Assembly: GCA_951828535.1 (NCBI GenBank)
Contig: OX639990.1
Coordinates: 3,521,300 to 3,585,299, forward strand
Source of the DNA: an uncultured Candidatus Entotheonella sp.
Lineage (GTDB): Bacteria > Tectomicrobia > Entotheonellia > Entotheonellales > Entotheonellaceae
Direction of reading: 5' to 3'
Length of the DNA stretch: 64,000 bases
Under the pieces are notes generated by a model. That model saw nothing but the letters and a program-made list of their open reading frames with translations. It was not told the origin of the DNA and did no database searches. Positions 11,608-16,845 of this stretch are shown piece by piece (position 1 is the stretch's first letter; each line of letters begins with the position of its first letter). A program made the translations under genes and the position numbers.

Positions 11608-11623
11608 TGAAGGGGTTGTCAAA

Positions 11624-11725
11624 ATTCCCTCTCCACACGGGAGAGGGTCAGGGTGAGGGTTACTCTGGGTTGCCGTCAGGCATGCTTCCCCCGTCCCAGC
11701 CTTCCCCCGAGGGAGAAGGAGCTTT
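11624..11725. repeat. Palindromic intergenic repeat, CCCTCTCC family
   Basis: CCCTCTCCACACGGGAGAGGG is followed by CAGGGTGAGGG, then a second weaker inverted pair (CCTTCCCCCGAGGGAGAAGG). It fills the space between the LLM gene and purC. Same family as the elements at 10341-10440 and 53555-53600. Confidence 0.7.
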
Positions 11726-12628: not shown

Positions 12629-12643
12629 GGTTTCCTATACAGG

Positions 12644-12787
12644 TCAACGACACACTTCGCCGCGGCGACAGATTTTCGTGACAAGGTTACGGGCCATTGA
12701 GTCGTCGATTTCGTAAACGGGGCGGTAGGAGCCGCTGCGAAGCCGATGAACCTGTTGCCATCTCGGAGTGCGGCGTCTGATACCGGG
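12644..12787 (-). pseudogene. RelE/ParE-type toxin remnant
   Basis: The minus-strand frame ending at TGA 12644-12646 reads RWQQVHRLRSGSYRPVYEI, then DDSMARNLVTKICRRGEVCR. This matches the C-terminal half of RelE/ParE toxins (family pattern W.R.R.G.YRV.YEIDD......V..RREVY). The N-terminal half and a start codon are missing. It lies in the gap between purC and hicB and adds to a cluster of damaged toxin genes. The frame is short, so the call depends on the pattern match. Confidence 0.6.
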
Positions 12788-12807
12788 AGACAACCGGAGG
12801 TTACGTT

Positions 12808-13020
12808 ATGACCGAGATCATCTTCGAGGTCACCGAGGACGAGGCGGACGGGGGATATTCGGCCAGCGGCCTGGGCTACGGACTGCACACCGAGGGCGAA
12901 TCGCTGAAAGAAATCCGCCATAACGTCAAGGAAGCCTTTGACTACTACTTCGACGAGACCGTGACCCGACCCAAATTGATTCGCCTGCTCTTCGTGCGCG
13001 ACGAGGTTCTGGAGGCATGA
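12808..13020 (+). CDS. hicB: HicB-like antitoxin
   Basis: 70 residues with the small HicB fold: IIFEVTEDEADGGYSASGLG, then YGLHTEGESLKEIRHNVKEA and FDYYFDE. This short form is often mis-annotated as a 2-oxoisovalerate dehydrogenase subunit. CGGAGG lies about ten bases before the ATG. The stop overlaps the hicA ATG (ATGA), a coupled hicB-hicA order. Because hicA is frameshifted, HicB is probably an orphan; the short form lacks an obvious DNA-binding domain. Confidence 0.8.
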   Translation: MTEIIFEVTEDEADGGYSASGLGYGLHTEGESLKEIRHNVKEAFDYYFDETVTRPKLIRLLFVRDEVLEA

Positions 13021-13283
13021 AGTTGCCCGCGACTTGAGCGGCGCCAGCCTGGAGGCTTCACGTCGATGCTTGGGCTACGAAACCGTGCGGCAGCGGGACT
13101 CTCCCGTGCGGATCACGACGCAGACCAACGGTGAACGTCATGAAGTTATCCCCCTGCACAGCCCGATTGGGGCGAAGACCCTGTCCAAGCATTCTGAAGA
13201 GCATTGCCCAGCGCCATGCCATGAGCGTCGAGGAACTCCTTTGTCATCTAACGACCAAGCTCAGCCGCGGACAAACCGCGTAG
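13017..13283 (+). pseudogene. hicA: hicA toxin, frameshifted
   Basis: Three frames stitch into a recognisable HicA. ATG 13017 gives MKLP and then a stop at 13035. Restoring one C in the CCC run at 13026-13028 gives MKLPRDLSG, and the next frame reads RCLGYETVRQRDSPVRITTQ, TNGERHEVIPLHSPIGAKTL. A second shift near 13185-13188 restores the first frame for SILKSIAQRHAMSVEELLCH, ending at TAG 13281. Both shifts are single-base events, so either the gene is dead or the sequence has two errors. HicA is a dsRBD-like mRNA interferase; the usual GSHxR His is replaced (RDSPVR), a further sign of decay. The 3' end runs into an attC-like site. Confidence 0.75.
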
Positions 13284-13317
13284 CGGGTTGACCGTTGGCT
13301 GCAGCGCCGTGTTATGC
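13246..13317 (-). other. attC-like recombination site 1 (after the PIN/antitoxin cassette)
   Basis: On the minus strand: R'' box GCATAAC (its TAA is the antitoxin stop codon), 5-base spacer ACGGC, L'' GCTGCAGCC, a hairpin centred on AACCCGCTACGCGGTTT, L' GGCTGAGC, 6-base spacer, R' box GTTAGAT (perfect GTTRRRY). L'' pairs with L' except for one extra G, the extrahelical base typical of attC. Length is 72 bp. R'' is the exact complement of GTTATGC, which starts this cassette at site 2, as integron cassette boundaries require. Confidence 0.7.
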
Positions 13318-13482
13318 CGCGGGAGGTTTGACACGCTTCGGTGGGCGAGTGATCGGCTTTTGGCCACTTGCTTTCTGCTGCCGCCTCAACGCCTCCCCGA
13401 TGGCCTTGATGTCATAGTTGAAGCGTCGAGCAAGCTCTTCGCGCCTACTCCGGGTTTCTTCGACGATTGGGTCTTTCCACAT
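13312..13482 (-). CDS. Antitoxin-like partner of the cassette PIN toxin
   Basis: 56 residues from ATG 13482: MWKDPIVEETRSRREELARR, FNYDIKAIGEALRRQQKASG, then a basic Pro-rich tail. It matches small proteins (MW.DPIVEEVR..RDEHAARFNYDL..I) encoded next to PIN-domain toxins in many genomes. It overlaps the 3' end of the PIN gene by 38 bases, so it is co-expressed, with toxin first. Its TAA stop lies inside the attC R'' box, a common design for integron cassette genes. No DNA-binding motif is obvious. Confidence 0.7.
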   Translation of the reverse strand: MWKDPIVEETRSRREELARRFNYDIKAIGEALRRQQKASGQKPITRPPKRVKPPAA

Positions 13483-13957
13483 TGTCCTGTGCCTCGATAA
13501 GTTGCAGTGGTGTACAGATCGTCGGCGGAATGACACCGAACTCTACGCACGCAGCATTGATCTGCGGCTGCATGAAGGGGTTGGCAATGTGTGCGCAGTT
13601 CCACGTCAAGAGGATATCGATGCCATTGGCCGCAGCTAGACCAATGTGCAGAGCGTCAAGTGCAGCCTTTTGGGGCAGCGCCATGGCTGAAAGCAGCGCA
13701 TCCGCCAGAGCTTCTGCCTCCTCCGTCGTCGCGAGGATCGGCAGGCCAGCAAGAAGCACCCCCCGATGGGCGGCGGCGGTTGGATCACCGGCTGCGCACT
13801 CCGCAACGACAACGTCTGAAACGAAGAGTTCGCATTCGCCACGGCGCGTCTCCCACCAGTCTCGTGTCACCTGTTGATTTCCGGCAACTACCAGGTCGCG
13901 ACTCGGACGCGCCGTCAAATAGCTGATTACGCTGGATTTGAGGTAAATGCTCTTCAT
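13445..13957 (-). CDS. PIN-domain toxin with altered first acidic residue
   Basis: 170 residues from ATG 13957 (ATG 13969 also possible). MKSIYLKSSVISYLTARPSR, DLVVAGNQQVTRDWWETRRG, then ELFVSDVVVAECAAGDP and ALDALHIGLAAANGIDILLTWN match a VapC-like PIN family with N-terminus YLETSVISYLTARPSRDL. The first metal-binding acid (Glu) is Lys7 here, codon AAA instead of GAA, one transition. The other acids (Glu in VVVAECAAG, Asp in ALDALHI) remain. Nuclease activity is probably weak or lost. The gene and its antitoxin form one cassette between two attC-like sites. Confidence 0.75.
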   Translation of the reverse strand: MKSIYLKSSVISYLTARPSRDLVVAGNQQVTRDWWETRRGECELFVSDVVVAECAAGDPTAAAHRGVLLAGLPILATTEEAEALADALLSAMALPQKAALDALHIGLAAANGIDILLTWNCAHIANPFMQPQINAACVEFGVIPPTICTPLQLIEAQDNVERPNRRRNPE

Positions 13958-13996
13958 CTTACGTAGCATGGAGGGATACTTGTCGGTTGGCGAGCG

Positions 13997-14063
13997 GCAT
14001 AACGTTGCCTTCAGTGGAGCCAGTGGCGTTAGAGACTGCTTCCGCTGGAAGATCTTGTTATTA
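13997..14063 (-). other. attC-like recombination site 2 (after the Nudix-like gene)
   Basis: On the minus strand: R'' TAATAAC containing the TAA stop of the Nudix-like gene, 5-base spacer AAGAT, L'' CTTCCAG, a 30-base central region, L' CTGAAG, 5-base spacer GCAAC, R' GTTATGC. L'' and L' pair with one extra C in L''. Size (67 bp), spacing and stop-codon overlap match site 1. Its R' box departs from GTTRRRY at one position, but it is the exact complement of the R'' of site 1. The two sites therefore bracket one cassette in the same orientation. Confidence 0.6.
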
Positions 14064-15221
14064 TTGTATTTGCATATTCTTTTGCCATAATGCCAAGGCA
14101 CTTAATAACGGCAAGGACATTGAATCGGCATGTTTATTAAGTAATGCGTCCATATTTTTTCTAAAGACGTATTTCTGATCATCATCTGGGTTATCATTAA
14201 AGACGTCTCCGCCAAAATGCCAAAATATTAACTTTGAGGATTCCCATTTGTCTTTGGCATTCCTTCGTAGGCTACGTACTTTACCTTGATCCAAATTGGT
14301 TTGAGCCATAAAAAACATTTCAGGCTTTCCGCCTCTCAATAATTCCCTTGTAATTCCCAGAAACTTTACAGAATCTGGATTAATGTCTTCATTATGAATG
14401 TGCAATTCCTCTTTTGACTCGCGAAGGAAAGGAAATGTTCCGGAACCTCCATCGGCAAGCCTGAAATCATCTGCCTCAAAAGAGCCAGACGATGGCGCCC
14501 CCCACAATGACCCAAAAGCAACTACCTTCCTTGATCGTTTTTGAATAATTAGTTCACCATCGGCAGTAAATAATAGCGTATTAACACCAAGAGAATTGGC
14601 CAGTTTTGAACTTGCTAAGTCCTCCAGCCCTTTACTCTTACCATGCACACGATTGCGAATTGTGTCACCTTTATCTTTAATAGGAGCATCAAGGCACATG
14701 TGTGTTTTGCATACGGCGTTATATCTAACTGGTTGAATGCATAACTTGACTCCTTCTTCGTCTGAGGAAACACATTTTAACCGTGCTAGTTCCCCATCGG
14801 TATAACACTTTCGATGAGCACGCAGCATTCGCCTATAACTTCCAAAAAAATGTGCTGCCGCCGCCTCAAGCTCATCATCTAAAGTGAATGTTTTGTCTGA
14901 AAAAGACACCTTAATTTCATTAGGAGAAAATGCACGTAGGGAATTGTCGAATTCTATTGCAACTGGCAAGGTATGCAATTCAATGCCGTTTTTGATGTTT
15001 AGATAATTGAGGCGGCTTGAATCGTAAAGCGCGCGCATTAATTGTTCGTTTGGAGAAAGATAAAAATCTGGTCTTAGTTCTTTGGGCATCAAACGCACGA
15101 CAGCCAATTTGAGGGTTGAAACGGGTAATCCCACAAAAGAAATACCATCTTCCACTAATGCCTTTCCACCTTCTACAAATGCCCTTCTAAGCAACTCTGA
15201 CTTGTTACCAGGATTTGTCAT
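14061..15221 (-). CDS. AT-rich Nudix-like protein of unknown function
   Basis: 386 residues; base use is clearly richer in A/T than all neighbours, suggesting transfer. The N-terminal about 200 residues match nothing I recognise. The C-terminal part resembles a Nudix hydrolase: a strand with GELIIQKRSRKVVAFGSLWG, then RESKEELHI, which fits the REUxEExxU core of the Nudix box, though the upstream Gly and Glu spacing is imperfect. AAGGAG precedes the ATG, and an inverted repeat CTGATT-N4-AATCAG lies just upstream at 15239-15254. The stop codon sits in an attC-like site, so this appears to be an integron cassette. Candidate roles are nucleotide-derivative hydrolysis or phage defence; neither is shown. 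Confidence 0.6.
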   Translation of the reverse strand: MTNPGNKSELLRRAFVEGGKALVEDGISFVGLPVSTLKLAVVRLMPKELRPDFYLSPNEQLMRALYDSSRLNYLNIKNGIELHTLPVAIEFDNSLRAFSPNEIKVSFSDKTFTLDDELEAAAAHFFGSYRRMLRAHRKCYTDGELARLKCVSSDEEGVKLCIQPVRYNAVCKTHMCLDAPIKDKGDTIRNRVHGKSKGLEDLASSKLANSLGVNTLLFTADGELIIQKRSRKVVAFGSLWGAPSSGSFEADDFRLADGGSGTFPFLRESKEELHIHNEDINPDSVKFLGITRELLRGGKPEMFFMAQTNLDQGKVRSLRRNAKDKWESSKLIFWHFGGDVFNDNPDDDQKYVFRKNMDALLNKHADSMSLPLLSALALWQKNMQIQ

Positions 15222-15238
15222 TGAAATTACTCCTTAAT

Positions 15239-15254
15239 CTGATTGTGTAATCAG
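15239..15254. promoter_or_regulatory. Inverted repeat upstream of the Nudix-like gene
   Basis: CTGATTGTGTAATCAG, a perfect 6-bp inverted repeat with a 4-base loop, ends 18 bases before the gene start and just upstream of its AAGGAG. It could be an operator or a 5' UTR hairpin. No partner regulator is identified. Confidence 0.35.
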
Positions 15255-15355
15255 TAATTATCAAGCAAATTTGACATGTGCCGTATCATCGTCCAAGGGC
15301 GACCAAAATTGCGGCACATCAAGTTCCGGACGTAGCATAGGCCCGGGGGATTCGC

Positions 15356-15829
15356 TTGTCGACCAAACTGCTCGACGAAATGCGCGACCTCATGCGGTGA
15401 CGTCATTATTCAATCCATACCGAACGCGCCTATCGCGATTGGGTCAAACGCCATGGCCGTTTCCATAATATGCAGTCCCGGGACGACCTTCACCCCGGGG
15501 AAGAGAAGATCGAAGGATTCCTCAGCCGCTTGGCCAGAGATCGCCAAGTGGCTGCTTCGACCCAGAACCAAGCCATGAATGCGCTCGTCTTCCTCTACAA
15601 GCACGTGCTCAAGCAACCACTGAGCGGCGAAATCAACGCAGACCCCGCACGCAAACAAACCAGGATACCCATTGTCCTGACCCGTGAGGAGACGGCTCGC
15701 GTGATCGCACTGACGTCCGGAGTGCATCAGCTCATGGTCAAGCCTCTGTACGGCTCCGGCTTGCGCATCACGGAGTGCCTTCGACTCCGCACCCAGGACA
15801 TCGACCTGGAGATGAAAGCTCTCACCGTT
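15356..15829 (+). pseudogene. Integron-type tyrosine recombinase (IntI-like), broken
   Basis: The frame reads TKLLDEMRDLMR, a TGA stop at 15398-15400, then [56 protein letters not shown] and [20 protein letters not shown]. These are the hallmark blocks of integron integrases (LLD..R..IR..HYS..TE.AY..W; ASTQNQAL.ALVFLY). TGA stands where family members have Arg, consistent with CGA to TGA. After KALTV at 15829 the similarity stops, so the rest of the catalytic domain, with the HxxR and Tyr residues, is absent. It points away from the minus-strand cassettes, the normal intI orientation. Confidence 0.75.
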
Positions 15830-15904
15830 TTGTTACCCTGTTCGTCAACGACAAATTGGACGCCTTTCATGATGCCGCTTCCCTCTCGTCGCCCTGCCTT
15901 CTCC

Positions 15905-16672
15905 CTATGCGAACGTCGCCGAAACGGCGCCTACCGACGAGAAGTGCGTTTCCCAGCTCTCGCCCTGCTTGATGGGCAGCGGCTTGGTGAACGATCCGGT
16001 AATGACGCACTGACCGGCCTCCAGCACCCTGCCAAAAACAGCGAGCTGGTTGGCGAGCCAGGCCAGCGATTGCAGCTGATCGTCAATGACGTCGGCGCCG
16101 AGCAGGCTGGCGATGATGGTTCCATCCGTCTTGACCTCGGCGGTGACCCCACCCAGCACCAGGTCCTTCGGGTACGGCGCTATCGCCGCGTGCGTCACGT
16201 AGCCCCACTGGCTGACGTTGTCGGCGATGCCCAGGGGCAAATCCTCCGCCATTTTGACCTGCATCGATACGACCTCGAACGACGGGGCGATCGAACTGAC
16301 CGCGTTGAGCGCCTGCTCACGGGTCGCACCGGGGCCGCGCAGCGTTTCGCCGAGGGTGAAGCAAAGCTCGGATTCGATGGCCGGGTTGACGATGTCGGCG
16401 TAGTTGAAGCGGTGGCCGCTGCTGTAGGCGTTGCTTTCCAGCAGGAAGCCGAAGGCCGGATCGCTGGTGTCGTAGATTTGTCGAATGGCGTCGGCCGTCA
16501 GCCCGATCTTCCAGCCCGCCTGCGTTTCGCCGCTGGCCTTGTAATGCTCCAAAACCCCCAGCTGCACCTGGTAGGCGTCATGCAGGGATAGCTTGCCCTG
16601 CAGCGCCTCGGGTGCGTGATCGCCCCGCTGCAAACCCTGCCACTTGATCTCGACTGCCTCGTCAACGGCCAT
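15905..16672 (-). CDS. 2-keto-4-pentenoate hydratase family protein
   Basis: 255 residues from ATG 16672 with AAGGAG upstream. MhpD/XylJ-like blocks: [46 protein letters not shown], then [15 protein letters not shown] (metal-binding Glu-x-Glu) and SWLANQL-type [20 protein letters not shown], with the final [15 protein letters not shown]. Members hydrate 2-hydroxypenta-2,4-dienoates or decarboxylate 4-oxalocrotonate in aromatic meta-cleavage routes. No other meta-cleavage gene is adjacent; the HpcH aldolase 6 kb away could act after such a hydratase. Confidence 0.85.
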
Positions 16673-16798
16673 TCTGATTCTCCTTATCCATTGCGAAAGA
16701 TGGCGTGCCTGTCCCGTTAGACAACGGGGGCGGAATGTAGAAAACACCCCCACACGGGGGGTAAGTTGCCGCGCCGACGAGTCGGTTCGCAGCTCGCT

Positions 16799-16845
16799 TT
16801 CCCCCTCACCCCAACCCTCTCCCTCGAGGGGAGAGGGAGTCAACC
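16799..16845. repeat. Palindromic intergenic repeat, CCCTCACCC family
   Basis: CCCCCTCACCCCAACCCTCT then CCCTCGAGGGGAGAGGG. The CCCTCTCCC and GGGGAGAGGG arms meet at a CTCGAG centre. It lies between the hydratase and the vWA gene. Same dispersed family as at 10341. Confidence 0.75.

Follow-up and report, generated by a model that had tools for sequence, protein, structure and literature searches.

Integrons are platforms that collect genes in bacterial chromosomes. A reading of the bare sequence had suggested that a short region in the genome of an uncultured Candidatus Entotheonella sp., situated between purC and an FAA-hydrolase gene, is a decayed chromosomal integron, and we wondered whether this suggestion holds up and how such an element came to be there. 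All coordinates given without a contig name refer to the window, i.e. the whole stretch of 64,000 nucleotides that was analysed, which covers positions 3521300-3585299 of a genome assembled as one contig of 3.6 Mb. The analysis confirmed that the locus is a decayed integron remnant, consisting of a broken half of the integrase gene intI and two captured cassettes. It comprises the following features:

12808-13254, plus strand: HicB-like and then frame-broken HicA-like open reading frame (both by eye); the end falls within R' of attC site 1
13246-13317, minus strand: attC site 1, the end of cassette 2 (covariance model 44.8 bits, core in common with the L040 integron, fold)
13312-13497, minus strand: cassette 2 gene b, small partner and presumed antitoxin, the stop codon of which lies within R'' of site 1
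13445-13960, minus strand: cassette 2 gene a, PIN-domain (VapC-like) toxin gene (PF01850, identity to VapC family)
13997-14063, minus strand: attC site 2, the end of cassette 1 (covariance model 22.0 bits, arm pairing in the fold)
14061-15221, minus strand: cassette 1 gene, 386-aa open reading frame (ORF call, GC content)
15265-15367, strand unassigned: remnant of attI and the intI promoter, proximal half (alignment with L040 1473-1576)
15368-15829, plus strand: intI pseudogene, N-terminal half of an integron integrase (TIGR02249, DNA identity to L040)

The intI pseudogene scored 165 bits against the integron integrase model TIGR02249, covering positions 1-152 of its 315, and is interrupted by one in-frame TGA; the curated cut-off for a full-length protein, 265 bits, was not reached because half of the gene is missing. 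The part following this stop codon scored 125 bits as an IntI versus 32 bits as XerC and 31 bits as XerD, and its best solved relative was the 320-aa Vibrio IntI4 (2a3v, residues 45-154). Over positions 15265-15828 the DNA is 84.4% identical to that of an intact intI on the contig we call L040 (MAG JAJDUQ010000234.1, Gammaproteobacteria bacterium jk18x1bzbins.85), the product of which passes the IntI cut-off with 441 bits and aligns with 2a3v residues 3-318. The pseudogene ends before the other catalytic motifs and the tyrosine are reached, so that most catalytic residues are gone, and the IntI-specific additional domain falls in the deleted region (after model position 152), which L040 spans. 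This deletion bars the locus from membership among functional integrons, not from descent from one. Where the sequence-only reading spoke of an integron that lost its integrase, this is right for the function and too strong for the gene, an N-terminal half of which persists with its stop codon. A profile search detected no second intI in the genome, the other matches being below the family cut-off and located within two Xer-sized open frames; since the genome is an estimated 92% complete, another intI could have escaped detection. The integron integrase family is often under SOS control, and the intI of L040 adjoins genes that read by eye as dnaE2, imuB, and lexA, genes of SOS mutagenesis (L040 2711-9557).

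The pseudogene on the plus strand is directed away from the minus-strand cassettes, as had been described, and both proposed attC sites showed the claimed R''/L''/L'/R' plan with an extra base in L'' and spacers of 5-6 nt. In site 1, R'' GCATAAC (13311-13317) is followed by a 5-nt spacer and L'' GCTgCAGCC (13297-13305, one extra base), and in the other arm L' GGCTGAGC (13259-13266) is followed by a 6-nt spacer and R' GTTAGAT (13246-13252). Site 2 has R'' TAATAAC (14057-14063), a 5-nt spacer, L'' CTTCcAGCG (14043-14051, again with one extra base), L' CACTGAAG (14009-14016), a further 5-nt spacer, and R' GTTATGC (13997-14003). The TAA stop codon of the upstream open reading frame lies inside each R'', with the frames ending at 13312 and 14061. 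Site 2 had first been taken for a 40-nt hairpin, an error corrected by placing R'' at 14057-14063. Our first pattern scanner, which required five R''/R' pairs, missed both sites; as the R'' and R' of one site stem from different cassettes in arrays, this requirement was relaxed, after which site 1 was detected.

A covariance-model search had been proposed as a check on these sites. Because Rfam gave no attC match at its gathering score, we built a covariance model of our own. Training sites came from 80 loci that harbour a relative of the integrase fragment, and in these loci the DNA upstream of intI was scanned for the R''/L''/L'/R' plan; this yielded 124 candidates on the strand opposite to intI versus 49 on the same strand, a bias that should be expected of cassette sites. 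The first model (R1) was made from the bottom strand of 44 attC sites of other integrons, with the window and L040 excluded. In the 64-kb window it returned site 1 with 44.8 bits (E 1.2e-8), far above background, and site 2, also clearly, with 22.0 bits (E 0.0043). Over the 3.6-Mb genome there were just two matches, namely these two sites, separated by 680 bp and adjacent to the intI pseudogene, with genome-wide E-values of 6.9e-7 and 0.24, respectively. A second model (R2), made from 111 sites including the two of L040, raised the scores to 52.9 and 24.0 bits. In the genome-wide search, site 1 was the sole match of R2 and site 2 was not returned, and the case for site 2 therefore rests partly on its position and boundary match; taken alone, it is moderately significant. 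When the sites were folded as single strands, as had also been proposed, the bottom strand folded better than the top strand for both. In the fold of site 2 both the R and L arms are paired and the extrahelical base is present, while its stability is no greater than that of shuffled sequences (z -0.76). The L'-spacer-R' core of site 1 (GGCTGAGC-TTGGTC-GTTA) is common to both attC sites of L040.

Integron cassettes leave a further signature at their boundaries, in that the R'' closing a cassette is complementary to the R' opening that cassette. As a benchmark, complementarity was exact at 7 of 7 positions in 45 of 63 adjacent attC pairs elsewhere (71%), compared with 3.7% of random pairings. 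The boundaries of the PIN cassette comply exactly (GCATAAC/GTTATGC), which bears out what had been noted from the letters. The rule is also obeyed between the two attC sites of L040, and at its attI, as read from the sequence, GTTAGGC faces an R'' GCCTAAC. Cassette 1 breaks the rule, since its R'' TAATAAC predicts a GTTATTA beside attI and none is present. No GTTRRRY core was found on the minus strand within 15222-15367, and in the alignment with L040 the distal attI repeat and the GTTAGGC core have no counterpart in the window. From these two results it follows that the boundary of cassette 1 was erased by deletion or heavy drift. A mutated attI core was at first seen in ATTACAC, near 15255; this reading was rejected because, according to the L040 alignment, attI lacks its distal part instead.

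The PIN protein of cassette 2 matched PF01850 with an E-value of 8e-4, which is under the cut-off of that family, and is 46% identical to an annotated VapC-family toxin. Its first conserved acidic residue is a lysine, at a position where every relative covering it has E or D, and the later conserved E and D positions are retained; the set of acidic active-site residues that marks VapC-type toxins is therefore incomplete, and the nuclease is predicted to be dead. The locus thus resembles VapC-family systems in having a PIN domain and the order toxin, then small partner, and differs from them in this lysine. In an unrelated integron of another genome (L163), a PIN gene with 50% identity and a homologous small open reading frame lie between two attC sites, and there too the boundary match is exact. 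The PIN gene and its partner are also adjacent on a plasmid of Kovacikia minuta. The pair is a bona fide cassette; the original description is amended in that the PIN gene itself looks inactivated.

The open reading frame of cassette 1 is AT-rich (∼40% GC versus ∼60%). Its 386-aa product had no match in Pfam, NCBIfam, PADLOC, or PDB, nor among plasmid and viral sequences, and weak matches to residues 204-337 were found in 2 of 386 genomes. A Nudix-like motif is possibly present in the C-terminal half, as read by eye, and a structure model from the single sequence was uninformative (pLDDT 34). Beyond site 1, the HicBA-like pair had no match in Pfam, NCBIfam, PADLOC, or PDB, its resemblance being by eye only, and since the covariance search of the window found no third attC toward purC, we do not call this pair a cassette. 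Both the PIN and the 386-aa open reading frames are uninterrupted. That the cassette genes have been under selection since the integron stopped working, with the dead PIN protein and its partner as a toxin neutraliser or regulator and the 386-aa protein in a new function, appears improbable to us.

The comparison with related genomes, which had also been recommended, showed that the intact intI of L040 has an attI and matching attC sites alongside. In a tree of IntI proteins, based on a short fragment of 120 columns, the window pairs with L040 (support 100/98), apart from the IntIs of G003 and G004, genomes of the same family or class. The DNA identity of the intI gene to L040 (84%) compares with a purC identity of 74-75% within the family. 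The remainder of the 10.8-kb L040 contig had no match to this genome. DNA similarity to a genome of the same genus, G001, ends at 12637 just past purC and restarts at the end of the FAA-hydrolase gene (15906). A distance of 118 kb separates the two genes in G001, where the FAA-hydrolase side has the opposite orientation to that in the window, and neither gene has an integron or attC beside it. The integron remnant (12637-15906) falls exactly on this synteny breakpoint. From the pairing with L040 and the flanking genes of G001 we infer horizontal arrival, and the platform looks horizontally acquired rather than ancestral.

Some further observations were made in these genomes. G001 has one lone attC (35 bits) directly after a putative DNA methyltransferase gene (L144 6612-7942; G001:C1 about 4270611-4271941), and the two are probably a single cassette without intI. 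G003, of the same family, has at least 56 matches to the attC model, spread over many contigs, as well as several intI genes from different clades (L147-L152), and is a genome with large or several integrons. Finally, a G+C-rich tract in the window at 16796-16840 (CCCTCACCCCAACCCTCTCCC-like) has more than 30 dispersed matches of ∼40 bp across the genome, with some in G001 and G003, and positions 11620-11660 read like this tract; it looks like an intergenic repeat of the REP type.

The data could be read in other ways. A chance occurrence of hairpins near two genes, next to a fragment of a phage or Xer recombinase, might be entertained because site 2 is weak when taken alone. Such a coincidence is refuted by the E-value of 1e-8 for site 1, by the finding that the only two model matches in 3.6 Mb are both at this locus, and by an IntI score of 125 bits against 31-32 bits for XerC and XerD, and we regard its probability as negligible. 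Alternatively, the cassettes may have been set at a non-attI site by an integrase encoded elsewhere, which would make the locus a true CALIN with an unrelated intI fragment. The missing attI core between intI and cassette 1 and the occurrence of lone cassettes in the genus, as in G001, are compatible with that scenario. It is nevertheless very improbable, as the intI fragment, the divergent orientation, and the array are found in order within 2.6 kb and the core of site 1 recurs in the attC sites of L040, which has the closest intact intI; this ordered layout and common core argue that platform and cassettes belong together.

A sedentary chromosomal integron of ancestral origin, which decayed vertically in place and was wholly lost from the sister species, deserves more weight. 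Integrons are at home in the family, as G003 with its 56 attC-model matches and several intI genes illustrates, and the same-genus G001 has its lone attC. We still consider this ancestry unlikely, because the IntI groups with a gammaproteobacterial MAG and not with the IntIs of G003 and G004, the intI gene is closer to L040 in DNA identity than purC genes are to each other within the family, and the site is a synteny breakpoint without an integron on either side in G001. Of the proposed "chromosomal integron", the second word was thus upheld, whereas the first, in its ancestral sedentary sense, gave way to evidence that favours horizontal arrival. On nearly every other point the sequence-only reading was supported.

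The locus is thus very probably a small integron that arrived horizontally and later became non-functional, with two captured cassettes. In this sequence of events, the integron would have come by horizontal transfer, and its function would have been lost afterwards. IntI, expressed on the plus strand, would have acted on attC sites as folded bottom strands and recombined them with attI, by which cassettes would have been added on the minus strand, and at least two would have been captured, the 386-aa orphan gene and the pair of PIN toxin and partner. IntI would then have lost its catalytic half through a stop codon and a deletion, and part of attI is gone as well. The two cassettes would now be fixed, barring an integrase acting in trans.

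The remnant is comparable to several known systems. L040 likewise has a divergent intI and minus-strand cassettes, and it differs in its full-length intI, its attI core GTTAGGC, and its other cassettes, while intI and attI of the window are broken. CALINs, defined by at least two attC sites without an integrase, have been proposed to be degraded integrons (PMC9024848). Having two attC sites in a genome in which no intact intI was detected, the locus agrees with this definition and with the degraded integrons reported by IntegronFinder, and differs in that it retains an intI fragment, so that the route of decay is directly readable. Of the marks of a degraded integron, it shows a truncated gene of the IntI family, the attC architecture, and the boundary rule at the PIN cassette; absent are the additional domain, a complete R-H-R-Y set, and an attI with its core beside intI. 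Nearly one third of intI genes were pseudogenes in a 2008 survey (PMC2426708), and active integrases are costly in terms of fitness and become lost in culture (PMC3510236). Integrons with an intI pseudogene, including those of Xanthomonas (PMC2426708; PMC12444791), similarly have an integrase broken by a stop codon and a deletion and cassettes that are fixed; the locus belongs to a different bacterial lineage and has only two cassettes left. Toxin-antitoxin systems are among the commonest reported cassette functions (PMC8618304), and the same PIN/partner pair has now been seen as a cassette in two unrelated integrons.

Degraded integrons are common, and in this respect the locus is an ordinary fossil of a well-known system. 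It captures an integron frozen mid-decay, with an intI fragment, a partial attI, and one cassette that still obeys the boundary rule. It also adds to the lineages that bear integrons one that is sparsely sampled, the relatives searched having included only four genomes of its genus, family, or class.
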